Source of the DNA: Bacteroidales bacterium | GTDB lineage: Bacteria; Bacteroidota; Bacteroidia; Bacteroidales; UBA12077 | Assembly (NCBI GenBank): GCA_019038645.1 | Contig: JAHOYT010000048.1 | Location: 1 to 35,820, forward strand | Reading direction: 5' to 3' | Length of the DNA: 35,820 bases | In this document: positions 769 to 15,144 of the stretch, in pieces | How positions within the stretch are numbered: position 1 is the stretch's first letter | How the letters are laid out: each line of letters begins with the position of its first letter | Position numbers and translations under genes: made by a program | Notes under the pieces: generated by a model | Seen by the model: only the letters and a program-made list of their open reading frames with translations | Told to the model about the DNA's origin: nothing | The model's database searches: none

Positions 769-1569
769 ATGGCAAAAGTAATTGCATTAGCAAACCAAAA
801 GGGTGGAGTCGGAAAAACCACAACAGCGATTAATTTAGCAGCCAGTTTGGCTGTTCTTGAAAAAAAAGTTTTAATACTTGATGCCGATCCCCAGGCTAAT
901 GCAACGTCCGGTACTGGTTTTGATATTAGAGCTATTAAAACAAGCATTTACGAATGTTTAGTAGATGATCAGGATCCTAAAAACATTATCTTAAACAGTG
1001 ATATAGAAGGCTTAGACTTAATTCCTTCGCACATTGATTTAGTTGGAGCTGAAATTGAAATGCTTAATAAGCAAAACAGAGAATACGTACTTAAAAATGT
1101 AATTGAAAAAATTAAGGACGATTACGATTATATTCTTATTGACTGTTCTCCATCGTTGGGATTAATAACTGTAAATGCACTTACTGCAGCGGACTCTGTT
1201 TTGATTCCTGTACAATGCGAATATTTTGCTCTTGAAGGATTGGGAAAACTATTGAATACAATTAAAATTATTCAGTCAAGATTAAATAAAGAACTTGAAA
1301 TTGAAGGATTTCTTTTAACCATGTACGACCCGAGACTTAGATTGTCGAATCAGGTTGTTGATGAAGTAAAAAAACACTTTCAGGATATGGTTTTTGAAAC
1401 AATCATTCAAAGAAATATAAAATTAAGTGAATCTCCCAGCTACGGGAAACCAGTTGTATTGTATGATGCATCATCAAAAGGATCGGTTAATTACCTGAAT
1501 CTGGCACGTGAGGTATTACAAAAAAATGACGAAACCAAAATTGCAAACGCAGAAAAAGTAGTAGAATAA
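769..1569 (+). CDS. parA: ParA/Soj chromosome-partitioning ATPase
   Basis: This is a 266-residue deviant Walker-A ATPase that binds DNA non-specifically in its ATP dimer form and moves ParB-bound origin DNA during chromosome segregation. The deviant P-loop KGGVGKTT lies at residues 11-18, giving the signature lysine at the start of the motif. LILDADPQ (about 35-42) and ILIDCSPSLGL (about 125) are the switch regions typical of Soj. Length is normal and there is no N-terminal DNA-binding extension, so it is the chromosomal type rather than the larger plasmid type. It lies 20 bases upstream of parB and the two are clearly co-transcribed. Confidence 0.95.
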   Translation: MAKVIALANQKGGVGKTTTAINLAASLAVLEKKVLILDADPQANATSGTGFDIRAIKTSIYECLVDDQDPKNIILNSDIEGLDLIPSHIDLVGAEIEMLNKQNREYVLKNVIEKIKDDYDYILIDCSPSLGLITVNALTAADSVLIPVQCEYFALEGLGKLLNTIKIIQSRLNKELEIEGFLLTMYDPRLRLSNQVVDEVKKHFQDMVFETIIQRNIKLSESPSYGKPVVLYDASSKGSVNYLNLAREVLQKNDETKIANAEKVVE

Positions 1570-1589
1570 AATATAATAATACAGGAAAA

Positions 1590-2456
1590 ATGGCAAAACG
1601 AAACGCATTAGGCAGAGGGTTAGGAGCATTAATTGATGATACAGGCATGGAACATATTGTAACCGCTGATGCCGTTAACGAAATAGATATTGACAGAATT
1701 GAAGCAAATCCTTTTCAGCCCCGTTCAATCTTTAATGAGGAATCTCTGGAAGAATTAGCAAGCTCAATTAAAGAACTGGGAATTATTCAGCCAATCACTG
1801 TCAGAAAACTTGACGACAGAAAATTTCAGCTAATTTCAGGTGAAAGAAGATTAAGAGCAGCACAGCTTGCCGGCCTTAAAAAAATTCCCACATTTATCCG
1901 TTTTGCAGACGATCAGGGAATGCTTGAAATGGCATTGGTCGAGAATATTCAGCGCGAAGATCTGGATGCCATTGAAATCGCAATTAGTTACCAGCGTTTA
2001 ATAGAAGAGTGTAAACTTACACAGGAAAGTATGAGCGAAAGAGTTGGAAAAAAACGATCAACAGTTTCCAATTATTTACGTTTATTAAAACTTCCGGCAG
2101 AAATTCAGTTAGGAATCCGCGACAAGCAAATTTCTATGGGCCATGCAAGAGCACTGGTTAATATTGATAATGAAAAAACCCAGCTTAAATACTATTATAA
2201 AATTATCGATGACGGATTATCTGTTCGAAAAACTGAAGATATTATACGTGATATAAATACTCCTAAATCAAATAATTCTAAAGATAAAGTCAGATTACCT
2301 GAAGAATATGATCAACTTCAAAAACACTTAAACGAGCACTTTCAGGCTACTGTAGATTTTAAACGCAACAATAAAGGTAGCGGAAAGATCGTAATTCCTT
2401 TTAAATCTGATGAAGATTTAGAAAGAATAATGGGAATTATAGACAAAATGAAATAA
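1590..2456 (+). CDS. parB: ParB/Spo0J centromere-binding CTPase
   Basis: 288-residue chromosomal ParB, which loads at parS sites, uses CTP to form a sliding clamp and stimulates ParA. Visible features in order: a short basic N terminus with ALGRGLGALI, the ParA-interaction peptide of Spo0J/ParB proteins; the EANPFQPR box; the CTP-binding GERRLRAA box (about 84-91); ENIQREDL (about 113-120); and a helix-turn-helix around TQESMSERVGKKRSTVSNYL. A low-complexity linker (about 228-238) leads to the C-terminal dimerisation domain. I did not find a convincing parS site in the window; two bare CACGTG cores (1504-1509 and 21034-21039) lack the flanking arms. Confidence 0.95.
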   Translation: MAKRNALGRGLGALIDDTGMEHIVTADAVNEIDIDRIEANPFQPRSIFNEESLEELASSIKELGIIQPITVRKLDDRKFQLISGERRLRAAQLAGLKKIPTFIRFADDQGMLEMALVENIQREDLDAIEIAISYQRLIEECKLTQESMSERVGKKRSTVSNYLRLLKLPAEIQLGIRDKQISMGHARALVNIDNEKTQLKYYYKIIDDGLSVRKTEDIIRDINTPKSNNSKDKVRLPEEYDQLQKHLNEHFQATVDFKRNNKGSGKIVIPFKSDEDLERIMGIIDKMK

Positions 2457-2486
2457 TTTTACACCCGGTAACAATAAGAATATAAT

Positions 2487-3065
2487 ATGCCGGGAAATTG
2501 GAAGAGTACAAACATCTCAAAGTATATAATCATAATAGTGTTGGTTTGTTCAGGAACCTTTGTAAATGGACAAAACCCTTCTGTGGAGAATAATACATAT
2601 TCTTTAAACGACAGTATTGTAAAAATTCATTCTCCCCATAAAGCAACCATGTATTCTGCGCTGGTGCCAGGACTTGGCCAGATTTATAATAAAAAATACT
2701 GGAAGTTACCTGTTATTTATGGTTTAACCGGAGCATTTATTTATGCTTTCGATTTAAATAACGACATGTATAATAAATATAAAAATGCTTATGCAGAAAT
2801 GGAAGCAGGTAATATTACAATTTTTGAAGGATATACAGACAAAGCCATTATGTTAAGACTTAAAGATGGTTATCAGCGTAACCGGGATCTTAATGTTATT
2901 GTACTTGCAGCAATATATATGTTAAATATTGTTGATGCCACGGTGGATGCGCATTTATATGAATATAAAATTACTGAAGATGTTTCTCTTAACGTTCAGC
3001 CTTCATTAATAAAAACTTCTGAGTATCAAAACTCCTACGGTCTTTCATTAAAATTTACTTTTTGA
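2487..3065 (+). CDS. DUF5683 family membrane-associated protein
   Basis: 192-residue protein starting 30 bases after parB, in the position where Bacteroidota genomes commonly carry a DUF5683 gene. An N-terminal hydrophobic stretch (about 13-28, YIIIIVLVCSGTFVNG) looks like a signal peptide ending near GQ. The family core is the segment KATMYSALVPGLGQIYNKKY, then WKLPVIYGLTGAFIYAF, a glycine-rich hydrophobic hairpin. A second hydrophobic segment lies near LNVIVLAAIYMLNIVDATVDAHL. The biochemical role of the family is unknown to me. Conserved linkage to parAB and a lytic transglycosylase suggests a cell-envelope role around division, which is inference. Confidence 0.8.
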   Translation: MPGNWKSTNISKYIIIIVLVCSGTFVNGQNPSVENNTYSLNDSIVKIHSPHKATMYSALVPGLGQIYNKKYWKLPVIYGLTGAFIYAFDLNNDMYNKYKNAYAEMEAGNITIFEGYTDKAIMLRLKDGYQRNRDLNVIVLAAIYMLNIVDATVDAHLYEYKITEDVSLNVQPSLIKTSEYQNSYGLSLKFTF

Positions 3066-3107
3066 TTTAACATTTTATAACTATAAATGTTATCTTTTTT
3101 ACTTGAA

Positions 3108-3139
3108 TTGAACTTATTTAGGGCTTTTAACTAACTTTG
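3108..3139 (+). promoter_or_regulatory. Bacteroidota-type promoter of the transglycosylase gene
   Basis: TTG at 3108-3110 is followed after 21 bases by TAACTTTG at 3132-3139, an exact TAnnTTTG -7 box. The start codon lies about 20 bases further on, so the leader is short. This gives the transglycosylase its own promoter, separate from parAB. Confidence 0.65.
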
Positions 3140-3158
3140 AGATATTAAAATAACAGTT

Positions 3159-4706
3159 ATGTACAGAAAAATATTTATTTCAATTATAATAATCACCCAA
3201 TTATCAGTAATAAGAAGCTTTTGTAACAATCCTGGTAAAGACAGCCTTTTGTATATAAAGAATTTTAGTGCTGGTCTAAATACGAATCTGGATAGCCTTA
3301 TAAATTTATGGTATTTACAAAATGCCATTAAAACTGATTATTCTTCAAATTCCGGGGATTCAGTTTCGAATATACCCGAATTTCATGATTCTGTTTACAT
3401 TGATAGACTTCAAAGGATTCCTTCAGTTGTAGAATTATCTTATAATAAAATCGTTCGCAACTATATTCACGTTTACACAAAAAAACAAAGAGAAGGCGTG
3501 GAAAACATGATTGGTTTATCAGATTACTATTTTCCTAAAATTGAAGAAATATTTGAGGGCTACGGACTGCCAACTGAATTAAAATATATGGCCGTGATCG
3601 AATCGGCGTTAAATCCCAGAGCTGTTTCGCGGGTGGGTGCAACAGGAATGTGGCAATTTATGTATGGTACTGCACGAATGTACGATCTTACAGTAAATTC
3701 ATTTGTTGATGAACGTCGGGATCCAATAAAATCTGCTCATGCAGCAGCACTATTCATGAAAGATTTGTATGCTATGTTTAACGACTGGACTTTGGTTATT
3801 GCTGCTTACAATTGCGGACCCGGAAATGTAAATAAGGCTATTCGAAGAACCGGAGGAAAAAGAGATTTTTGGCAAATTTATTATCATCTGCCGCGCGAAA
3901 CACGAGGTTATGTTCCGGCTTATATAGCGGCAACTTATACATTTAATTACTACAAAGAACATAATTTAACTCCGGAGTTTCCTGAAATACCTATTGCAAC
4001 AGATACAATATTGATTTCGGACAACTTGCACTTAAAACAGGTTTCAGAAGTTTTGAATATTCCATTGAAAGCATTAAGAGATTTGAATCCTCAGTACAAG
4101 CAAAATATTATTCCGGCTAAAGAATCTAGCTTCCCCTTAACCATACCATTAGAATATATTGGTAGTTTTATTGATTTACAGGATTCCGTTTTTAATTACA
4201 AAAAATCTGTTTATTTCAATGCAGATAATACAATAAAAAATCCTCAAAAATCATATTATGTACCTCAAGCGCCTACGAATAGAAATAAATTAATTTACAC
4301 AGTAAAATCAGGAGATAATTTAGGATTTATTTCAAGCTGGTACAATGTAAGAGCCTCTGATATAAGATACTGGAATAATATTCGTGGAAATATGATTCGT
4401 GTTGGTCAAAAATTAAATATTTATGTACCGAAAGGATCATCAGCTAAATATGCCAGCGTAAATTCTCTTTCTTTTGAAGAAAAACAAAAAAGAATTGGAA
4501 AAAACACTTCAAGACCAGAGGAAATCAATACACAACCTCAGGATAACAACTATGTTTATTATAAAGTACGTTATGGAGATACACTTTGGGAAATTGCAAA
4601 AAAATATTCAGATGTTACCGAAAATGATATCATGAAACTGAATAATATCAGAAGTGGAAAATCACTTAAGGCTGGTCAATATATTAAGATAAAACCAAAA
4701 GGATAA
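3159..4706 (+). CDS. mltD: MltD-like membrane-bound lytic murein transglycosylase with LysM repeats
   Basis: 515-residue exported protein that should cleave peptidoglycan glycan strands to form 1,6-anhydro-muramyl ends. A hydrophobic N-terminal signal spans about residues 4-20. The SLT domain covers about 135-250: MAVIESALNP carries the catalytic Glu148, GATGMWQFM is the second family motif, and IAAYNCGPGNV the third. A divergent LysM-like stretch follows near 293-335, then two clear LysM peptidoglycan-binding modules at about 379-424 (TVKSGDNL) and 467-513 (KVRYGDTLWEIA). This layout is that of MltD. It follows the DUF5683 gene after a 93-base gap containing its own promoter and ends 22 bases from a convergent gene. 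Confidence 0.92.
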   Translation: MYRKIFISIIIITQLSVIRSFCNNPGKDSLLYIKNFSAGLNTNLDSLINLWYLQNAIKTDYSSNSGDSVSNIPEFHDSVYIDRLQRIPSVVELSYNKIVRNYIHVYTKKQREGVENMIGLSDYYFPKIEEIFEGYGLPTELKYMAVIESALNPRAVSRVGATGMWQFMYGTARMYDLTVNSFVDERRDPIKSAHAAALFMKDLYAMFNDWTLVIAAYNCGPGNVNKAIRRTGGKRDFWQIYYHLPRETRGYVPAYIAATYTFNYYKEHNLTPEFPEIPIATDTILISDNLHLKQVSEVLNIPLKALRDLNPQYKQNIIPAKESSFPLTIPLEYIGSFIDLQDSVFNYKKSVYFNADNTIKNPQKSYYVPQAPTNRNKLIYTVKSGDNLGFISSWYNVRASDIRYWNNIRGNMIRVGQKLNIYVPKGSSAKYASVNSLSFEEKQKRIGKNTSRPEEINTQPQDNNYVYYKVRYGDTLWEIAKKYSDVTENDIMKLNNIRSGKSLKAGQYIKIKPKG

Positions 4707-4728
4707 CTATTTAAAAAGAATTTCGTTC

Positions 4729-7449
4729 CTATTTTATGTAAATCATTTGCCTAACAGCTATTTGCCTTCCGTTAACGACATATTTATAAAAATAAACCCC
4801 ATCTTCTACCTGGCTCCCTGAATTGTTGGTTCCATTCCATTTAACCGAATACTGACCTGAGTTTTTTGTTTCATCAACAAGCACTTTTGTTTGCTGACCT
4901 GTTGAATTATATACGTATAATTTTACGTCGGCTTTGTTTTCAAGTTCAAAATCAATTTGTGTGTTTTGTTGGAATGGGTTTGGATAATTTTGCTTAAGGT
5001 TCTTTTCAGATTCAAATATACCTTCAACTGATGCAGGAGAATTATTCTTTTTTATACTAACTGTAATTTCACTATTGGCAGCCAGATTCACATTTACATA
5101 ACAGATACTATTCCCTTCTGAGTTAATAATTTGTTCAAGCGTCCCGTTTGTAACCGAATATTCATATTCACTTTCAGGCATAATAAATTTAACTAAAGTA
5201 TTGCTAAAAGGCTGATTATGGTTATTGGAAATTGTAGCAGCCAAACTATCGGCACTTCCATTATTTACTGAACTAAAAGATATGTCGAGATTCTCGCCTG
5301 TTGAATAAGTATAAGTGGTGTTTTCCGGCTGTAAACTTCCTCCATTAACCCTTATTACACGATATGCTTTTTCACCATCACAAACATTGTCAGTTCTTAA
5401 ATAATATGGATGTGTATTAATATCACCATCGTTGGAATGAGCATGTCCCCACAATGCCATATCAACTCCTAACGCCGGAAGATCCAATTCTCCTTTAAAA
5501 TCAAAATGATAAAATAGCACTTTCGTTTTTGATCCTGCATTTGCCAGATCATTTTCTAACCAGGTAATTTGTGAAGGAATAAAACTTTCACGTCCATAAA
5601 CATCGTACATATAGCTATCGTAATTATCGTAAGATTCTAACCCCACATAATGCACATCTCCATAATCAAAACTATAATCGTGAACATAAAACTCTTCTTT
5701 TACCGGAGGTATTACGCTTTGTCTCCATCCAAAAAACTTCCACCATTCTTGTCTTGCTGTTCCCTGTGGAGGTGGTGTAGCATCCCATCCACCTAAATCA
5801 TGATTTCCAGGAACTATAAAAACCGGAACTTCAAATTTCTCTAACAATTCAACCGTTAGACTATGATGTCTCAAACATTCAAAATCTTCCAGTTCTCCTT
5901 CATTTATCAAATCGCCTGTTAAAAGAACAAACTCAGGGTTAATCAAATTAATGTCTTTTATCACTTCATACAAATCGTCCAGCTCCGATTCGTCTGTTTC
6001 ATATCCTTCATCTCCATAAAATGAGTGCCCCGGAAGGTGCGTATCGGTAATATGTACAAAATAATAATCATCTTTATACTGATCAATTATTTTCACAGAA
6101 TTACTTACATCATCTAATATGCCACCCGATGCTGTTACTCTTAAATCGTATAATTCATAGGAATCAACTTCTGGAATCGTAGCTTGCAATGTCCATTTTT
6201 GTAAGTCACTATTGTAATCAGATTGAGAAATACTAAGTGATACAGCAATATCTTCAAATCGCAATTCAGCATCCCAATCTGTTGTAGTTTCTGCAGCAAA
6301 ACATTCAATTGTGAGAATCTCTCCTGGTATTACGATAGAAGGAATATTTAGTAATGGTCTTTGAACAACTGTTACAGTATCTCCTATTGGTTTGTCACAT
6401 TCTGTTAAGTATGACGTAAGAGTTCCTTCTGAAAGATAAGTAACTTCGCTTCCATTTATCTTAGGTGATGAAAACTGTAAATTTCCAACTCCTTCGGAAA
6501 CTGCTGTAAATTGTAATTTTATAAGAGTTAAAATATCATCACATGTGATGTTTCCGCTAAATACCAGACTTATATTTCCTTCAGTAGTATTATCAATTAC
6601 AGTTCCGGGTTCCGATAAAGTTGTTGTTTTATCATATCCGACATATGTAAATACAGATACATTGTAGGTCATATTCAACTCATAACTCGTTATGTTTTCG
6701 GATTGATTTAAGATGGCAACTCTAACCGGCATATCAAAACTAAAATCTCCAATAACATTTTTATCCTCAGTAGCCAGAATAAGATCACCAACATCAGACT
6801 GTATATCTTCAATAAATCTTGGTTGAACAGACATTGATCCATAATTAAGTCCAATAACACCAATTATTCCTGAAAAAGGATAGTCAATAACCAGGGGGAA
6901 TCCTTCATCCTGTAAATCATAAATACCTGAACGAATCTCATTTTCACCACTGCCATCATTAACTTTCCAGTTTCCAGAATTGTCAAACTCTCCACTCACT
7001 GAACAGTCATTTACTTCAACAAGGACTCCTTCGTATGCTTCATCGGTTATTTGAGCTGTAGATATTTTTACTGTTTCAGGAACAGGGTTCGATGTGCTTT
7101 TTACTTCAAACGAGCTCAGATTCTTTAATTCAGTAAATCCATTATATTCGTATACATATCCTGTAATTATAATACTGTCGCCAATTTCAGGAGAATAATT
7201 AAAATCGTAAATAAAAATTCCATTCCATGCTCCACTTGTCGAAGATGAAATAAAATAATTCCCTCCTATAAAATCAATTGCAGTAACAATACCCCCGGTA
7301 GTTACTTCCTGCCCGTTATATAAAGAGGGATATGTTCCATCATCAGCAGTAGTTGTATATTGTATGTCGTAAATACTTGTTTGAGCAAATAAAGTATTAG
7401 AAATTACTATGCTTAATACTATTGACATTATATATTTTTTCATCATCAT
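4729..7449 (-). CDS. T9SS-exported multidomain metallophosphoesterase
   Basis: A 906-residue secreted protein. Order of parts: signal peptide (about 1-22, ending LFAQ); an OB-fold-like domain (about 27-215) of the kind seen beside secreted nucleases and phosphatases; a beta-rich segment at about 222-350 that resembles a cohesin domain; another beta domain (about 365-455); the calcineurin-like phosphoesterase at about 462-705; a beta domain (about 718-800); and a type A T9SS sorting domain at about 820-906 with NYPNPF, a FlgD-like Ig fold and GVYFYKYVV. Metal-site motifs are DTH (469-471), GDLINEG (512-518), GNHD (548-551), YHFD (647-650) and GHAH (668-671). The third and fourth positions of GDxxxxG lack the usual Asp, as in some subfamilies. 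Substrate unknown: phosphodiesters, nucleotides and phospholipids are all possible. Three in-frame ATGs lie at the start; MKKY at 7443 is equally likely. Confidence 0.85.
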   Translation of the reverse strand: MMMKKYIMSIVLSIVISNTLFAQTSIYDIQYTTTADDGTYPSLYNGQEVTTGGIVTAIDFIGGNYFISSSTSGAWNGIFIYDFNYSPEIGDSIIITGYVYEYNGFTELKNLSSFEVKSTSNPVPETVKISTAQITDEAYEGVLVEVNDCSVSGEFDNSGNWKVNDGSGENEIRSGIYDLQDEGFPLVIDYPFSGIIGVIGLNYGSMSVQPRFIEDIQSDVGDLILATEDKNVIGDFSFDMPVRVAILNQSENITSYELNMTYNVSVFTYVGYDKTTTLSEPGTVIDNTTEGNISLVFSGNITCDDILTLIKLQFTAVSEGVGNLQFSSPKINGSEVTYLSEGTLTSYLTECDKPIGDTVTVVQRPLLNIPSIVIPGEILTIECFAAETTTDWDAELRFEDIAVSLSISQSDYNSDLQKWTLQATIPEVDSYELYDLRVTASGGILDDVSNSVKIIDQYKDDYYFVHITDTHLPGHSFYGDEGYETDESELDDLYEVIKDINLINPEFVLLTGDLINEGELEDFECLRHHSLTVELLEKFEVPVFIVPGNHDLGGWDATPPPQGTARQEWWKFFGWRQSVIPPVKEEFYVHDYSFDYGDVHYVGLESYDNYDSYMYDVYGRESFIPSQITWLENDLANAGSKTKVLFYHFDFKGELDLPALGVDMALWGHAHSNDGDINTHPYYLRTDNVCDGEKAYRVIRVNGGSLQPENTTYTYSTGENLDISFSSVNNGSADSLAATISNNHNQPFSNTLVKFIMPESEYEYSVTNGTLEQIINSEGNSICYVNVNLAANSEITVSIKKNNSPASVEGIFESEKNLKQNYPNPFQQNTQIDFELENKADVKLYVYNSTGQQTKVLVDETKNSGQYSVKWNGTNNSGSQVEDGVYFYKYVVNGRQIAVRQMIYIK

Positions 7450-7654
7450 AAAGTGTTGAATGAATATTATTATACAATAATAAGAAATTCATTTGCAAGT
7501 TAATCCAGAATATATAAATCTCGTTATCAAATGAAATAATTTGAACTAATTTTCTGATTTAGTTTCATTAAACATGTTTTTTTTCTGTTCTAAATACCTA
7601 TATATATATAATCCGCAACTGACACATGATTAATTATACATAATTCTTTATATA

Positions 7655-7686
7655 AAAAAACATCCACTATAAAGCAGATGTTTTTC
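7655..7686 (-). terminator. Hairpin terminator of the GG-leader peptide gene
   Basis: AAAAACATC (7656-7664) pairs with GATGTTTTT (7677-7685) around a 12-base loop. Read on the minus strand the stem is followed by a T run, so it would end transcription about 20 bases after the stop codon of the small gene at 7706. It shares the 10-mer AAAAACATCC with the terminator at 32108-32140. Confidence 0.6.
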
Positions 7687-7705
7687 AGATATAATTTACC
7701 TGCGA

Positions 7706-7825
7706 TTATGGATCGAGAAAATCTGGTGGTATTTTACCAGGATCCTTTGTTGCGCTCCTTCCTCCTTTAATTTTAATCAACTCTTGCTTAGGTAGTTCAT
7801 TAAATGAACGTAGTTTCTTTTTCAT
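7706..7825 (-). CDS. 39-residue double-glycine-leader peptide precursor
   Basis: A 40-codon open frame, ATG at 7825-7823 and TAA at 7708-7706. The N-terminal half begins MKKKLRSFNELP and continues KQELIKIKGG. A basic start, LxxxELxxI spacing and a Gly-Gly at 21-22 are the hallmarks of leaders cut by C39-peptidase ABC transporters, and resemble the GG-type natural-product precursor leaders of Bacteroidota (TIGR04149-like). The predicted mature part is 17 residues, RSATKDPGKI then PPDFLDP: Pro- and Asp-rich, with no Cys, so no disulfide or thioether ring is possible. The gene has a TATTTTTG -7 box upstream (7866-7873, minus strand) and a terminator downstream, so it looks like its own transcription unit. 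No C39 transporter or radical SAM maturase is visible in the window; the ABC exporter at 13321 lacks a peptidase domain. Function (bacteriocin, signal peptide) is inference. Confidence 0.6.
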   Translation of the reverse strand: MKKKLRSFNELPKQELIKIKGGRSATKDPGKIPPDFLDP

Positions 7826-7865
7826 AAGGAAAGTTTTAAGGTTAATAAAATAATTGATTAAATTA

Positions 7866-7873
7866 CAAAAATA
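7866..7873 (-). promoter_or_regulatory. Candidate -7 box for the GG-leader peptide gene
   Basis: On the minus strand this reads TATTTTTG, an exact TAnnTTTG match about 40 bases before the start codon. No TTG -33 element is found at the right distance, and the surroundings are very AT-rich, so chance matches are likely. Confidence 0.35.
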
Positions 7874-7965
7874 TATTGCAATATAAAATTTTGTAAAATT
7901 CTAAATCGCTTTTATTTCAAAGAAATATTGATATATTTAGGAGTCCAATTGAAAGTTCAAACTGA

Positions 7966-9498
7966 ATGAAACCGCACAAAACCCTACTCTTTCTAATTAG
8001 TGTTTTTCTTGTACTTTCGTTTCTGTCATTTGTTTTTCCAAAAGAAGGTTTTCAAATTGGTAGTAAGCTTCTTTTACAATTTCCCGATATTAAAAGCTTA
8101 TTTACTCCACAAGAGTCAAAATATGCCGATATTAATGAAATACTCGCATATCATCAATCCGATATTATTGAAAATATTGATGATTTAGTTACTGATACTA
8201 TTATAGAAGTATATGACAGCCTACAGATAATGCCGGATTCACTAAAAGCAGATATCGCAACGGATACTTTGGGTTTTGTAGATTCCTCCAAAATAATAAA
8301 ACAAGAAAAACAACCAGGTACAATCCGGCAATACCTGGAATATCAGGACAACAACAAATCTGTTTTATATCCATTTTTCAATCATCTGAAAAACCTAAAA
8401 ACTTCGAATGAATTAATACGAATATTACATTATGGCGATTCCCAGATTGAGGGAGATCGCATAACTTCTTATATCAGGAATGAGTTACAAAAGCAATTTG
8501 GAGGATCAGGTATTGGCTTGTTTACACCAGTTCTTATAAAAGGAACAAATATATCAATGCAACATAAGCTTAACGGAACATGGAATCGTTACACTATTCA
8601 AAGTATAAAAAACGGGAATATTTTTCATAAGCGGTTAGGTGCTTTAATGAATTTCGGGCGATTTGCTCCTATAAATTCGGTTAATAACAAAATGTATTAT
8701 GGAGAAATTAATCTTCGAAAATCAAATATTACTTATCAAAGAACCAGAAAGTTCAAACAATGCCGGGTTTTTTACGGATTTAACAATGGTCCTTTTATAG
8801 CAGAAATAAAATACAAAGATCAAACTTTAGATGCTGAACTAATTCCGATTTCCAGACAATTAAACACAATTTCATGGGATATTGATGGCGCCCTGGATGA
8901 GATTACCATTAGCTTTAAAGGTGAAGACAGTCCGGATATTTATGGTATTGCTCTGGACGATCATTCAGGAGTTGCTGTTGATAATATTCCTTTACGAGGA
9001 AGTAGCGGAACTGATTTTACAAGAACAGATCTTGCATTTCTTCGCTCTATGTATCAGAAGTTAAATACTAAATTAATTATCCTGCAGTTTGGTGTTAATC
9101 TCGTTCCATACATTACCAAAGATTACTCTTATTACGAAAAGCAATTTTATAAACAATTAAAAACACTAAAAGGACTTAGGCCAGATATAAGTATTATAGT
9201 TATTGGTGTTTCGGATATGTCTCAGAATAAAAACGGACAATATGTCTCATATCCTAATATCGAAAAAATACGCAATGCTCAAAAAAATGCTGCTTTTAAA
9301 GCCGACTGTGCATTTTGGGACATGTACGAAGCTATGGGCGGAAAAAATTCCATGCCAGCATGGGTAAATGCAAATCCCGCTTTAGCAAGGCCTGATTTTA
9401 CACATTTTTCCTGGAAAGGATCAATAGTAATTTCTAAAATGTTTTACGAGGCACTAATGAATGATTATAACGAATATCTTAAAAAAGCAAAACCATAA
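7966..9498 (+). CDS. SGNH/GDSL hydrolase-fold protein, membrane-anchored (first of pair)
   Basis: 510-residue protein with an N-terminal hydrophobic segment (about 6-24) acting as signal or membrane anchor, then an acidic, probably flexible stretch (about 45-115). The SGNH core starts near 150. The GDS block is HYGDSQ with Ser159, the Asn block is LQFGVN, and the C-terminal catalytic pair is in DFTH (PDFTHFSWKG). All catalytic positions are kept, so it should be an active esterase or O-acyltransferase on the periplasmic side. It stands first in a three-gene run with a second SGNH protein and an MBOAT protein. By analogy with AlgI/AlgJ/AlgX and PatA/PatB, it probably accepts an acyl group handed across the membrane and places it on a glycan. 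The glycan is unknown. Confidence 0.8.
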   Translation: MKPHKTLLFLISVFLVLSFLSFVFPKEGFQIGSKLLLQFPDIKSLFTPQESKYADINEILAYHQSDIIENIDDLVTDTIIEVYDSLQIMPDSLKADIATDTLGFVDSSKIIKQEKQPGTIRQYLEYQDNNKSVLYPFFNHLKNLKTSNELIRILHYGDSQIEGDRITSYIRNELQKQFGGSGIGLFTPVLIKGTNISMQHKLNGTWNRYTIQSIKNGNIFHKRLGALMNFGRFAPINSVNNKMYYGEINLRKSNITYQRTRKFKQCRVFYGFNNGPFIAEIKYKDQTLDAELIPISRQLNTISWDIDGALDEITISFKGEDSPDIYGIALDDHSGVAVDNIPLRGSSGTDFTRTDLAFLRSMYQKLNTKLIILQFGVNLVPYITKDYSYYEKQFYKQLKTLKGLRPDISIIVIGVSDMSQNKNGQYVSYPNIEKIRNAQKNAAFKADCAFWDMYEAMGGKNSMPAWVNANPALARPDFTHFSWKGSIVISKMFYEALMNDYNEYLKKAKP

Positions 9499-9500
9499 GA

Positions 9501-10754
9501 ATGCAGCAATTAAAAAGTAAATTATTAATAATAATATTTTTGAGTCTGGCATTATCAGTAAAAAGCCAGACTATATGCGATACATTACCTTTTATAAATT
9601 GTGATGCAAATGAAATTATTAGATTCAAAAATGACTCTAACACAAATAACTTAATACAAAAACTTACAAACTTAAAATCAGGTAAAAATGAATCTGTTCA
9701 AATTGTTCATATTGGAGATTCACATTTACAAGCAGGTTTTTTAACCGAAAAAATTAAACAACAATTATTTCAATATTACTCAAATTCAGATACTATTGCT
9801 GCACCAGGATTTATATTTCCATATGCTATTGCCAAAACAAACAACCCATTCTTTTTTAAGGTTGATTATACAGGAACCTGGGATTGGTGTAAAAATACAG
9901 ATCAGGAAAAAAATTGCAGTTTAGGATTATCAGGAATAACGGTCAGAACGAAAGATTCCATTGCTTCAATATGCATAAAAATGCAGAATCAGAAATATAA
10001 TGATCCTTTGAAGTACTATTTTAACCACATAAAAATTTTACATAACACAATTAATCATCCCGGAATCAAAATTAATGGCAAAAATGTCAAAACTTTCGAC
10101 GGATATTCTTCTATTGAATTGCAAAACTTAACTGACTCCTTTTGTATTGAAATAAGCCAGCAAAATGAAAATCATTTTGAATTATATGGTATTATTTTAG
10201 GAAATAGCATTTCAAAAATTAATTACCATTCCATAGGAGTAAATGGTGCTACTGCTCAATCCTATTTACAATGTGATTATTTCTCGGGTCATCTTCAGAA
10301 TATAAATCCCGATTTAGTTATCATATCCCTTGGAACAAATGAAGCCTATGATGATGATTTTTCAAAACTGGAACATGAATATATTTTAAAAGATTTAATC
10401 TATCAGATTCAGGATGTTTCTCATAATGCAGCAATTTTGATTATAAGTGCTAATGATCATTTAAAAAACCGGGAGTTTGCTAATCTTAACATTCAAAAAG
10501 TAAATGACAATATTGTTAATATATGTAAAGAGCTGAATTTAAACTATTGGGATTTTTACAACATAATGGGAGGCGAAAACTCAATCATAGATTGGTACGA
10601 AAAAGGATTAACCAGCGAAGATAAATTACATTTAAAAAGGTCAGGCTATGAAATTCAGGGCGAGCTATTTTTTAAGGCGTTTATAAATATGATAGAGAAT
10701 AATAATATGAATGTCGTTTCTGGTCCTAATAAGGAATATAAACCTGTAAAATAG
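9501..10754 (+). CDS. SGNH/GDSL hydrolase-fold protein, secreted (second of pair)
   Basis: 417-residue exported protein whose ATG lies 2 bases after the previous stop codon, so translation is probably coupled. Signal peptide about 1-22, ending VKSQ. Core blocks: HIGDSH with Ser74, ISLGTNEAY as the Asn block, and DKLH near residue 377 as the Asp/His pair. Catalytic residues are complete. It is a divergent paralogue of its upstream neighbour, shorter because it lacks the long acidic N-terminal linker. Between the Ser and Asn blocks sits an inserted beta-rich region (about 90-235) that could bind carbohydrate. Together with the neighbour and the MBOAT protein it forms a presumed glycan O-acylation system; which of the two SGNH proteins transfers and which hydrolyses cannot be told from sequence. 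Confidence 0.8.
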   Translation: MQQLKSKLLIIIFLSLALSVKSQTICDTLPFINCDANEIIRFKNDSNTNNLIQKLTNLKSGKNESVQIVHIGDSHLQAGFLTEKIKQQLFQYYSNSDTIAAPGFIFPYAIAKTNNPFFFKVDYTGTWDWCKNTDQEKNCSLGLSGITVRTKDSIASICIKMQNQKYNDPLKYYFNHIKILHNTINHPGIKINGKNVKTFDGYSSIELQNLTDSFCIEISQQNENHFELYGIILGNSISKINYHSIGVNGATAQSYLQCDYFSGHLQNINPDLVIISLGTNEAYDDDFSKLEHEYILKDLIYQIQDVSHNAAILIISANDHLKNREFANLNIQKVNDNIVNICKELNLNYWDFYNIMGGENSIIDWYEKGLTSEDKLHLKRSGYEIQGELFFKAFINMIENNNMNVVSGPNKEYKPVK

Positions 10755-10790
10755 ATTCCTGATCATCGCGATGCTTCGTCAGGAATGACA
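10755..10790. repeat. REP-like palindromic element A
   Basis: ATTCCTGA (10755-10762) and TCAGGAAT (10779-10786) form a perfect 8-base inverted repeat around CATCGCGATG (10764-10773), itself a perfect palindrome. Read on the minus strand it starts TGTCATTCC, as does the element at 25750. It sits between two genes of one operon, so it may be a dispersed repeat that landed there, forming an RNA hairpin that could lower expression of the MBOAT gene. Confidence 0.5.
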
Positions 10791-10803
10791 TATAAAAAGT
10801 AAA

Positions 10804-12339
10804 ATGGATATTTTAAAAGACATATTACTCTATTCTGAAGCTAAACCGTTGTTGTTTACAAGGTTTTTCTTCTGGGGATTTTATGCCTTTATATTAATAT
10901 TCTATTCTATCCTTTACAAAAAAAATCATCTTCGTCATGCCTGGTTATTTTTTATGAGTTTGTTTTTTTATTATAAATCGGGCGGTTACTTCTTTACTTT
11001 ATTGATTTTCTCGACGATAGCAGACTTTACACTTGGACAATTAATATATTCGGCTAAAACAAATTTAAAAAAGAAATTATTTGTAGCGTGCAGCGTTTTA
11101 ATCAACCTGGGTTTATTAGGATATTTTAAATACACTTATTTTTTTACAGACATTATAAATTCAACTTTCCATACTAATTTCGAAGTAATTAATCACCTGG
11201 CAAACTGGACAAACAATTTAACAGGCTCATCTTTTGATATTTCCCGCATTATTTTACCTGTAGGGATTTCATTTTATACTTTTCAGACTATTAGTTACAC
11301 TGTTGATGTTTATCGTAAAAAACTTAAACCTGTTAAAAATATTATTGACTTTGGTTTTTATGTTTCATTTTTCCCACAATTAGTAGCCGGTCCAATTGTT
11401 CGTGCAGCAGAATTTATTCCACAATTATATCAGAAATTCAAATTATCCCGGCAGGAATTCGGACATGCCACATTCTTAATTCTTAATGGGTTAGTTAAAA
11501 AGATGCTGATTTCTGATTATATTTCAATAAATTTTGTTGACAGGATTTTTGATTCACCAGGCTCGTTTACTGGTTTTGAAAATCTGATGGCTGTTTATGG
11601 ATATTCTATACAGATATACTGCGATTTTTCGGGTTACACCGATATTGCTATTGGAGTTGCTCTTTTGCTTGGATTCAGGCTTCCCGTAAATTTTAATTCT
11701 CCGTACAAAGCGATAAATATTACCGATTTCTGGAGAAGGTGGCACATTTCATTATCATCATGGCTAAGGGATTATTTATACATTCCCCTCGGAGGTAACA
11801 AAAAAGGGAAATCCAGAATGTATGTTAATATTATGATAACAATGCTGCTTGGAGGTTTGTGGCACGGAGCCAACCTGCGCTTTATTATTTGGGGAGGAAT
11901 ACATGGTCTGGGGCTTGTAATTCATAAGCTTTGGGTTAAGCTAAATTTATCATTAAGTAAGTATTATACTTCAAAATCAAGCAAAAATGTTTTTCTGAGG
12001 TTTATCTCAGTTTTTACAACATTTCATCTGGTAACTTTTGCATGGATATTTTTCAGAGCAGAATCATTGGAAATAGCAACAGGTATGATCAGGCAGATAT
12101 TCACTAATTTCCAACCCGGACTTGTTCCAATAATGATTTCATCGTATTACAAAACCCTGTTACTAATTTTTGTCGGACTCGGAATTCACTGGCTACCATC
12201 ATCCTTTAAAGAGAACTATCGTGGTTGGTATATAAAATCTCATATTGCCATTAAAGTTCTGCTTGTAGTTTTTGTAATTTTTATCCTGTATCAGATAAAA
12301 TCATCTGAAATACAGCCTTTTATTTATTTCCAGTTTTAA
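10804..12339 (+). CDS. MBOAT-family membrane O-acyltransferase (AlgI/DltB/PatA type)
   Basis: 511-residue polytopic membrane protein with about ten hydrophobic segments. The MBOAT core shows FWRRWHISLSSWLRDYLYIP, a conserved stretch of AlgI-type proteins, then the segment LLGGLWHGAN whose His is the invariant MBOAT residue. This class takes acyl groups from cytosolic acyl-CoA and passes them through the membrane to an outer partner. Here the partners are the two SGNH proteins encoded just upstream; the 49-base gap carries a palindromic repeat. The likely product is an O-acetylated surface or secreted polysaccharide. The gene converges with the FkbM methyltransferase gene, 29 bases apart. Assignment to the family is firm; the substrate is open. 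Confidence 0.9.
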   Translation: MDILKDILLYSEAKPLLFTRFFFWGFYAFILIFYSILYKKNHLRHAWLFFMSLFFYYKSGGYFFTLLIFSTIADFTLGQLIYSAKTNLKKKLFVACSVLINLGLLGYFKYTYFFTDIINSTFHTNFEVINHLANWTNNLTGSSFDISRIILPVGISFYTFQTISYTVDVYRKKLKPVKNIIDFGFYVSFFPQLVAGPIVRAAEFIPQLYQKFKLSRQEFGHATFLILNGLVKKMLISDYISINFVDRIFDSPGSFTGFENLMAVYGYSIQIYCDFSGYTDIAIGVALLLGFRLPVNFNSPYKAINITDFWRRWHISLSSWLRDYLYIPLGGNKKGKSRMYVNIMITMLLGGLWHGANLRFIIWGGIHGLGLVIHKLWVKLNLSLSKYYTSKSSKNVFLRFISVFTTFHLVTFAWIFFRAESLEIATGMIRQIFTNFQPGLVPIMISSYYKTLLLIFVGLGIHWLPSSFKENYRGWYIKSHIAIKVLLVVFVIFILYQIKSSEIQPFIYFQF

Positions 12340-13320: not shown

Positions 13321-15144
13321 ATGAAAATAATTGCACGAATTTATACTTTAATAAAATCTTATTCATTAAAAGTAATTCTAAGCATACTCTTTGCACTTCT
13401 GGGAACAATATTTTCGCTTGGATCATTTGTAATGATTACCCCGTTTTTGCAAATTCTGTTCAAAATACAACCCGTTGTTAATGATGTCGTAGCCGTTGAT
13501 GTTGGTAATTTTGAAACGATTAAGCATAATTTTAATTATTTTTTAAGTCAGTTAATGGTCACAAACGGTGAGAAGGTTGCCCTTCTTGTGGTTAGTCTGG
13601 CTCTGGCCTTTTTAGTTCTTCTTAAGACTTTCTTTTTATATTCAAGCAGGCTGGCCATGATTCCAATAAGAACAGGTGTTGTGCGGGACTTAAGAAATAA
13701 ACTTAATACCAAAATTCTTAATATTCAGATTTCATATTTTACTGAAGAAAGAAAAGGAGATATTATTTCGAGAATGACCAGTGATGTACAGGAAATAGAA
13801 AATACAGTTGTTATGTCTCTTTTCGGAGCAATTAAAGCACCAATCACAATAATAATATATTTGGTTTCTTTATTTGTAATAAGCTTCAAGCTTACATTAT
13901 TTGTACTTGTATTATTACCTGCGACAGGTTTTGTAATTGGTAAAATCGGGAAATCCCTAAGAAAGAAATCTGCAAAAAGTCAACAAAAACTGGGCTTGCT
14001 TCTGTCATATATCGAAGAATCGTTATTTGGATTACGAATTATTAAAGCTTTTAATTCAGAAGATAAAATTAATGATCGTTTTCAGCAGGAAAACAGTTCT
14101 TATACTAAATTAATGAACAGAATCTGGCGTAGGAAAGATCTTGCAGGTCCTCTTAGCGAGTTTCTTTCTACATTTGTGATTGTTATCCTGCTTTGGTACG
14201 GAGGTAATATGGTGCTAGGTAATACTTCAACCCTTAATCCTGCTGATTTTATTCTATATCTTGTTATTTTTTCACAAATAATTGTTCCCGCAAAAGACTT
14301 ATCTTCTGTGCATTACAATATACAAAAAGGGATGGCATCTATGGACCGGATAGATCATGTGCTTGATGCAGATATTTCTATTAAGGAAAAGCCAAATGCC
14401 GAACCAATAACAGATTTTACACAAACAGTCGAATACAAAAATCTGAGCTTTAAATACATTGAAGACTACGTACTTAAAAATATAAATATCAAAATTGAAA
14501 AAGGAAAAACGATTGCTTTAGTTGGTCAGTCCGGTTCAGGAAAATCAACATTAGTAGATTTACTTCCCCGGTTTTATGATGTTAAAGAAGGGGAAATTTT
14601 AATTGACGGGTATAATGTTCAGGATTTGAAAATAAAAGATCTTCGAAATTTAATGGGAATAGTTAGCCAGGAATCAATATTATTTAATGATTCAATTTAT
14701 AATAATATTGCTTTCGGAATGGAAAATGCTGATGAAGATCAAATAATAGCGGCAGCTAAAGTAGCAAATGCACATGAGTTTATTTTACAAACCGAAGATG
14801 GCTATCAAACAAATATTGGCGACAGGGGAACTAAACTTTCAGGTGGACAACGACAAAGAATAAGCATTGCAAGGGCTGTGTTGAAAAATCCGCCTATTCT
14901 TATTCTTGATGAAGCAACTTCATCTTTAGATACTGAATCTGAAAAACTGGTCCAGGACGCACTGTTTAAATTAATGAAAAACAGAACTTCAATAGTTATT
15001 GCTCACAGGCTATCGACAGTTCGTAATGCCAATGAAATTTGCGTGCTGCACGAAGGAGAAATAGTGGAAAGAGGGAAGCATGATGAGCTGATTAAAAAAC
15101 AAGGAGTATACAAAAAACTACACGATTTGCAAATATTTGCTTAA
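13321..15144 (+). CDS. MsbA-like ABC exporter, permease-ATPase half transporter
   Basis: 607-residue half transporter that should work as a homodimer in the inner membrane. Residues 1-330 form the six-helix exporter domain. The ATPase domain shows Walker A GQSGSGKST (402-410), the signature LSGGQRQR (506-513), Walker B ILILDEATSSLD (526-537) and the H-loop AHRLST (His562), all intact. The layout and length are those of MsbA lipid A flippases and of the wider family of lipid and peptide exporters. There is no N-terminal C39 peptidase, so it is not the processing transporter for the GG-leader peptide at 7706-7825. The gene stands alone with its own promoter candidate and a strong terminator. 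Confidence 0.88.
   Translation: MKIIARIYTLIKSYSLKVILSILFALLGTIFSLGSFVMITPFLQILFKIQPVVNDVVAVDVGNFETIKHNFNYFLSQLMVTNGEKVALLVVSLALAFLVLLKTFFLYSSRLAMIPIRTGVVRDLRNKLNTKILNIQISYFTEERKGDIISRMTSDVQEIENTVVMSLFGAIKAPITIIIYLVSLFVISFKLTLFVLVLLPATGFVIGKIGKSLRKKSAKSQQKLGLLLSYIEESLFGLRIIKAFNSEDKINDRFQQENSSYTKLMNRIWRRKDLAGPLSEFLSTFVIVILLWYGGNMVLGNTSTLNPADFILYLVIFSQIIVPAKDLSSVHYNIQKGMASMDRIDHVLDADISIKEKPNAEPITDFTQTVEYKNLSFKYIEDYVLKNINIKIEKGKTIALVGQSGSGKSTLVDLLPRFYDVKEGEILIDGYNVQDLKIKDLRNLMGIVSQESILFNDSIYNNIAFGMENADEDQIIAAAKVANAHEFILQTEDGYQTNIGDRGTKLSGGQRQRISIARAVLKNPPILILDEATSSLDTESEKLVQDALFKLMKNRTSIVIAHRLSTVRNANEICVLHEGEIVERGKHDELIKKQGVYKKLHDLQIFA

Follow-up and report, generated by a model that had tools for sequence, protein, structure and literature searches.

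A single-gene double-glycine-leader peptide of an uncultured Bacteroidales bacterium, its candidate exporter on another contig, and a family of similar peptides linked to CHAT proteins

In a 35,820-nucleotide stretch of DNA from an uncultured Bacteroidales bacterium (hereafter the window), we take the minus-strand frame at 7706-7825 as a real gene that forms a single-gene unit and encodes a precursor with a double-glycine (GG) leader. Our preferred reading, to which we give a probability of about 0.62, is that this peptide is exported in trans by the peptidase-C39 exporter (PCAT) encoded on contig 4 of the same genome and that its linear tail works as a signal or effector outside the cell. Secretion of the 17-residue tail is probable, because the genome encodes one PCAT and the leader is of the classic type. 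The window peptide is a testable candidate for a secreted peptide, and following it exposed a conserved family of GG peptides paired with CHAT proteins, which is a more surprising lead than the window peptide itself. The features of the gene and its surroundings are as follows.

7706-7825, minus strand: GG-leader precursor gene, ATG at 7825 and TAA at 7708-7706, 39 amino acids plus stop
7760-7825, minus strand: leader of 22 residues with F-15, L-12, E-8, L-7, I-4, G-2, and G-1
7709-7759, minus strand: predicted 17-residue product, RSATKDPGKIPPDFLDP, released by a cut that would fall after GG
7866-7873, minus strand: promoter-like box TATTTTTG, matching TAnnTTTG, the consensus of the Bacteroidota -7 box
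7656-7685, minus strand: terminator-like hairpin of 13 pairs, 3' of the stop
4729-7449, minus strand: left neighbour, 906 aa, which we take to be metallophosphoesterase-like (named by eye)
7966-9498, plus strand: right neighbour, 510 aa, presumably SGNH-like (named by eye)

The translated precursor is MKKKLRSFNELPKQELIKIKGG followed by RSATKDPGKIPPDFLDP, with the GG at residues 21-22. The frame of the initial annotation stands, and its length is corrected to 39 residues (40 codons including the stop). The 17-residue tail contains four Pro and three Asp, has a net charge of 0, and is free of Cys, as had been stated. In the accessible text of two reports, the leader consensus of PCATs is L-12 xxx E-8 L-7 xxxx G-2 G-1 (PMC6959990), and the recognised positions are -4, -7, -12, and -15 (PMC7018657). 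The window leader has the GG end, L-12, E-8, L-7, and hydrophobic residues at -4 and -15 that mark PCAT substrates; the series F-15/L-12/E-8/L-7/I-4/G-2/G-1 thus agrees with the published consensus and bears out the proposal of a GG-leader precursor.

Genes for peptides this small are easily missed by gene callers. The exact consensus LxxxELxxxxGG was found once in a short ATG frame of the real window and twice in 2000 dinucleotide shuffles, in which a relaxed form had 103 matches; in 80 loci totalling 686 kb, the exact consensus had no match and the relaxed form two. A strict leader pattern, composed after the peptide had been seen, had no match in 800 window shuffles, and a loose pattern had 338 in 800. 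Codon usage, a test independent of the leader motif, gave the peptide frame a score of 7.55 bits, compared with a mean of 7.73 for segments of window genes (n = 245, 48% scoring no higher), the model having been trained on the same genes that supply these segments. This score was reached by 0.14% of 5000 random frames, and the other five frames of the same stretch scored -11.5 to 1.4. The G+C content was 0.36 in the frame versus 0.19 and 0.22 in its flanks. It is because the exact leader motif is rare by chance, and because of the gene-like codon usage and the G+C content, that the gene is taken as real.

The gene lies alone in a 516-bp gap between the two larger genes. In line with the initial annotation, it has a promoter-like box and a terminator-like hairpin of its own, namely TATTTTTG at 7873-7866 on the minus strand and a hairpin after the stop: the 60-nt stretch 7705-7646 has a folding energy of -17.6 kcal/mol (z -5.3), and none of 200 shuffles was as good. 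The -33 element upstream of the gene is poor by eye, and the U run of the hairpin belongs largely to the 3' arm. The hairpin (7685-7656) was not listed by a simple terminator scan, both matches of which lay inside the peptide frame. Two other candidates for the gap were dropped: an Rfam RNA, as no family matched there at the gathering threshold, and a DltX-like partner of the adjoining SGNH/MBOAT genes, as the peptide has no membrane segment and its gene is divergent (judged by eye).

One peptidase-C39 domain was found in the genome (96.9% complete, 102 contigs), on contig 4 (117.7 bits); hence an exporter and protease exists elsewhere in the genome, and the C39-ABC exporter predicted outside the window turned out to be exactly one. 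The domain belongs to a 733-aa C39-ABC protein with an HlyD-type fusion protein encoded next to it. This protein matches PCAT1 (4ry2, E 3e-18) and ComA (3k8u, E 3.6e-17), and its Q8, C14, H88, and D109 align to the active-site residues of PCAT1 (correspondence by eye). A separate ABC exporter in the window (13321-15144) has no C39 domain and is MsbA-like by eye. Searching the genome with a leader profile gave three GG peptides (window, contig 4, and contig 19), all of which are rows of the profile itself. The contig-19 precursor has two Cys, starts with MKKKL, and is followed by a radical SAM/SPASM-like gene (24.5 bits, below the family cut-off of 27). Since this GG peptide is also unlinked and the genome has a single C39 gene, it too seems to depend in trans on the exporter of contig 4.

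In the route that we propose for the window peptide, transcription would start from the TATTTTTG box, the leader would dock on the peptidase domain of the contig-4 PCAT and be cut after GG, and export would follow the ABC/HlyD path, with the PCAT acting in trans. The linear, Cys-free product of 17 residues would then most likely serve outside the cell as a signal or effector, together with the acidic GG peptide that the PCAT operon encodes. The leader type, the gene-like codon usage, the hairpin, the single C39 domain, the second unlinked GG peptide, and the likeness of the docking positions to those of CHAT-linked peptides (below) speak for this reading; the lack of a counterpart in other genomes, the neutral core, the MKKKL start, and family scores under the curated cut-offs speak against it.

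The refuting conditions of the initial annotation gave a split outcome: a C39 gene exists, but conservation of the frame was not found in the 19 congeners searched. Protein searches with the peptide as the query gave no counterpart, the best E values being 0.28 in 58 relatives and 0.05 in 392 other genomes of the order, two sets that overlap in part. Twelve distinct non-own loci matched weakly: two hold GG peptides that are alike in the leader (L003 and L004), and ten were rejected as counterparts, having been read as unrelated gene stretches or as lacking a GG leader (L005-L009 and L101-L105). The SGNH neighbour gene is present in 17 of the 20 genus genomes, and its 13 named records (at least 65% identity) all come from metagenome-assembled Bacteroidales/Bacteroidetes, one labelled Marinilabiliales. 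Among 16 other SGNH loci, checked over no more than 1.5 kb upstream (L018 over 443 bases), the left neighbour is the same only at L015, in the genome G008. This nearest relative with the same flanking genes has no GG frame in the gap, and its gap aligns convincingly to that of the window over 57 bp only, at the SGNH end. Because the searches gave no counterpart and the gene is absent from the G008 gap, it appears either to be confined to this species or close relatives or to evolve too fast for detection.

The window peptide scored below the curated cut-off of every family that it matched. It resembles the ComC/BlpC-type GG peptides of streptococci (PF03047; 19.5 bits, E 8e-4, cut-off 20.4) in the hydrophobic residues at -15, -12, -7, and -4, in E-8, in the GG, and in the short linear product, whereas its host is Gram-negative and its gene lies beside neither its exporter nor a receptor kinase. 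The GG/radical SAM precursors of Bacteroidota (TIGR04149; 12.4 bits, cut-off 25) share its leader style, MKKKL...IKGG; in contrast to them, the window peptide has no Cys, and no adjoining maturase was recognised. A TIGR04149 search of its own genome found the contig-19 peptide and not the window peptide. Graspetide precursors of Bacteroidetes are described, in the accessible part of PMC8939145, as fast-evolving in branch 5, with GG motifs and C39 exporters among graspetide loci; those are ATP-grasp loci, however, and no ATP-grasp gene was recognised by eye in the window.

The peptide family that came to light through the window peptide is centred on the following cassette.

L010 (G000:C4:97000-115988), 900-11460: contig-4 cassette, kept in much of the genus and in part in the order

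The gene order on contig 4 is ECF-type sigma factor, TPR/anti-sigma-like, TPR-CHAT (opposite strand), GG peptide (core EGDNDDDLWPPTTIPPGND), TPR, HisKA, two LytTR, C39-ABC, and HlyD. The GG peptides of this operon form a genus-wide family, mostly Cys-free and acidic with a core of about DGDDDDLWPP, and are encoded divergently from the TPR-CHAT genes; the CHAT proteins of the operon are caspase-like. Of the 20 genus genomes, 18 have a C39 domain, 16 encode an ABC protein with 85% identity or more to the contig-4 PCAT, and 14 carry a contig-4-type GG peptide, several of the loci being cut by contig ends. When eleven of the peptides were aligned, M1, K2, E12, F20, G34, G35, and P46 were invariant. 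Compared with NCBIfam and Pfam, these eleven had no confident match, the weak ones being to TIGR03893 (3/11, best E 0.0067) and PF16934 (1/11, E 0.039). In congeners, at the loci L011, L088, and L093, Cys-containing GG peptides and radical SAM-like genes (by eye) lie between LytTR and C39-ABC, as if the exporter served modified cargo too.

A profile of the family matched 42 of 393 genomes of the order at E 0.1 or better, part of them by chance. When 26 of these order-level loci were read, a GG frame was seen by pattern in 14 (L201 being doubtful) and on closer reading in two more. The peptide directly adjoins a recognisable CHAT gene in 18 of 21 GG-peptide loci that were read deeper (including L013); L248 has two genes between, and L253 and L261 have the TPR part only, at a contig end. 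In aligned CHAT domains, a Cys and a His are kept in 28/28 and a second His in 27/28, and most of the CHAT proteins begin, by eye, with what resembles a signal peptide. CHAT matches occurred in 35 of 60 genomes of the order. In the reverse test, which took 20 CHAT loci, one per genome, from high-scoring rows away from contig ends (seven re-read), one had a GG peptide that could be recognised next to its CHAT gene (L311, with a C39-ABC gene too). A CHAT gene thus does not imply a peptide, and the association holds in one direction, from peptide to CHAT, a direction favoured by the profile having been built from CHAT-linked members. Similar peptide-CHAT pairs recur in the order, and most of the sampled CHAT genes have no peptide.

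Among the open-licence literature, searched as full text with looser matches judged by title or start of abstract, no description of the pairing was found. Parts of the gene company of the PCAT are not new, since PMC10352776, in its accessible portions, already describes Bacteroidales clusters with PCATs, among them BGC2 and 9, which include tetratricopeptide-like genes, and BGC5, which includes a histidine kinase with a response regulator. These RiPP clusters have PCAT exporters and GG leaders in common with the present genes; they were found, in contrast, around modification enzymes, and the same portions mention no CHAT protein.

We consider it unlikely that the window peptide belongs to the CHAT-linked class as a displaced member. 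It would then bind, outside the inner membrane, the TPR part of a secreted TPR-CHAT partner and switch the protease. GG peptides found with the family profile do adjoin TPR-CHAT genes, and the window peptide resembles them in being Cys-free and Pro-rich, with the same exporter available; its docking quartet F/L/L/I is that of three CHAT-linked peptides from the congeners G009 and G011. Its last 16 leader residues scored 31.4 bits under the CHAT-linked class versus 23.0 under the Cys/rSAM class, and its last 20 scored 30.8 versus 25.4, the class sizes of 28 (one with Cys) and 9 favouring the larger. With 16 residues and leave-one-out, the CHAT-linked side took 27 of its 28 members and one of the nine others. 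The class table excludes second copies or near-duplicates in L096, L199, L200, L207, L221, L223, L227, L232, L244, and L260, as well as L202/L261, the Cys-bearing frame of L211/L255, L236, other GG frames seen in L080, L085, L087, L092, L201, L243, and L256, and three loci read or found later (L249, L250, and L311).

The start and the core of the window peptide point away from that class, however. Its MKKKL start fits the Cys/rSAM class (an MKK start in 6/9 versus 0/28 CHAT-linked members), and its core is neutral with Arg directly after GG, whereas CHAT-linked cores have a mean charge of -4.4 (-14 to -1) and D or E first in 24 of 28. Both the acidic core and the CHAT neighbour of the class are thus absent; the two CHAT genes of the genome are on contigs 4 and 20, none being in the window. 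The contig-20 gene is as follows.

L265 (G000:C20), 6640-10077: second TPR-CHAT gene

No GG frame was seen beside this gene, of which the window peptide might be the displaced partner, but no sigma-factor relative was seen among its neighbours either, and it is 29% identical to the CHAT part of the contig-4 operon. The single peptide among the 20 sampled CHAT loci also speaks against a displaced partner.

A broader proposal, which we regard as improbable, would make the window peptide a solitary, species-restricted member of an undescribed Bacteroidales network, in which linear GG peptides exit via one PCAT and act on secreted, caspase-like TPR-CHAT proteases while sigma-factor, HisKA, and LytTR genes read the outcome, a ComC-like signalling in Gram-negatives. 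Little is known of ComC-type peptide signalling in Bacteroidota. If the peptide-CHAT pairing holds, a concrete peptide, an exporter, and a candidate receptor are available to test.

A GG leader is a typical feature of class II bacteriocins, and the bacteriocin_sig and Bacteriocin_IIc models matched the window peptide below their cut-offs. Nevertheless, a small bacteriocin that leaves unmodified through the PCAT seems quite unlikely, as the product is a neutral, Pro-rich stretch of 17 residues with no Cys and no immunity-like gene was recognised by eye beside the peptide. Furthermore, the bacteroidetocins of PMC6671954, as far as its accessible text describes them, have leaders of 15-16 residues, a linked transporter, and products of about 42 residues that contain two or more Cys, whereas here the sole C39 gene is on contig 4.

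The initial annotation also proposed a maturase elsewhere in the genome. We hold it very unlikely that the contig-19 radical SAM/SPASM-like enzyme, or some other unlinked enzyme, modifies the precursor in trans. The contig-19 precursor, which the SPASM-like gene (below its cut-off) follows, does share the MKKKL start, and the two leaders are 45% identical; that enzyme, however, adjoins a Cys-containing precursor of its own, the window core has no Cys, and the whole-peptide identity of 26% is the lowest of nine compared. As for a chance frame in a non-coding transcript or a decaying gene, we give it very little credence despite the lack of detected conservation, given that the gap has no Rfam family and that codon usage, G+C content, and the exact leader motif combine in one frame.

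Several of the loci read showed arrangements of their own. In L243, L245, L249, and L250, the CHAT-linked GG peptides have runs of 8-9 prolines after an acidic start. In L299, a short frame rich in Pro and Asp (...RLPDPPPNDPIPNPDEPPKK) and lacking a GG leader lies just upstream of a TPR-CHAT gene and divergent from it. Beside another C39-ABC gene, L087 has three GG-leader frames in tandem (4686-5217), whose cores are hydrophobic and bacteriocin-like.
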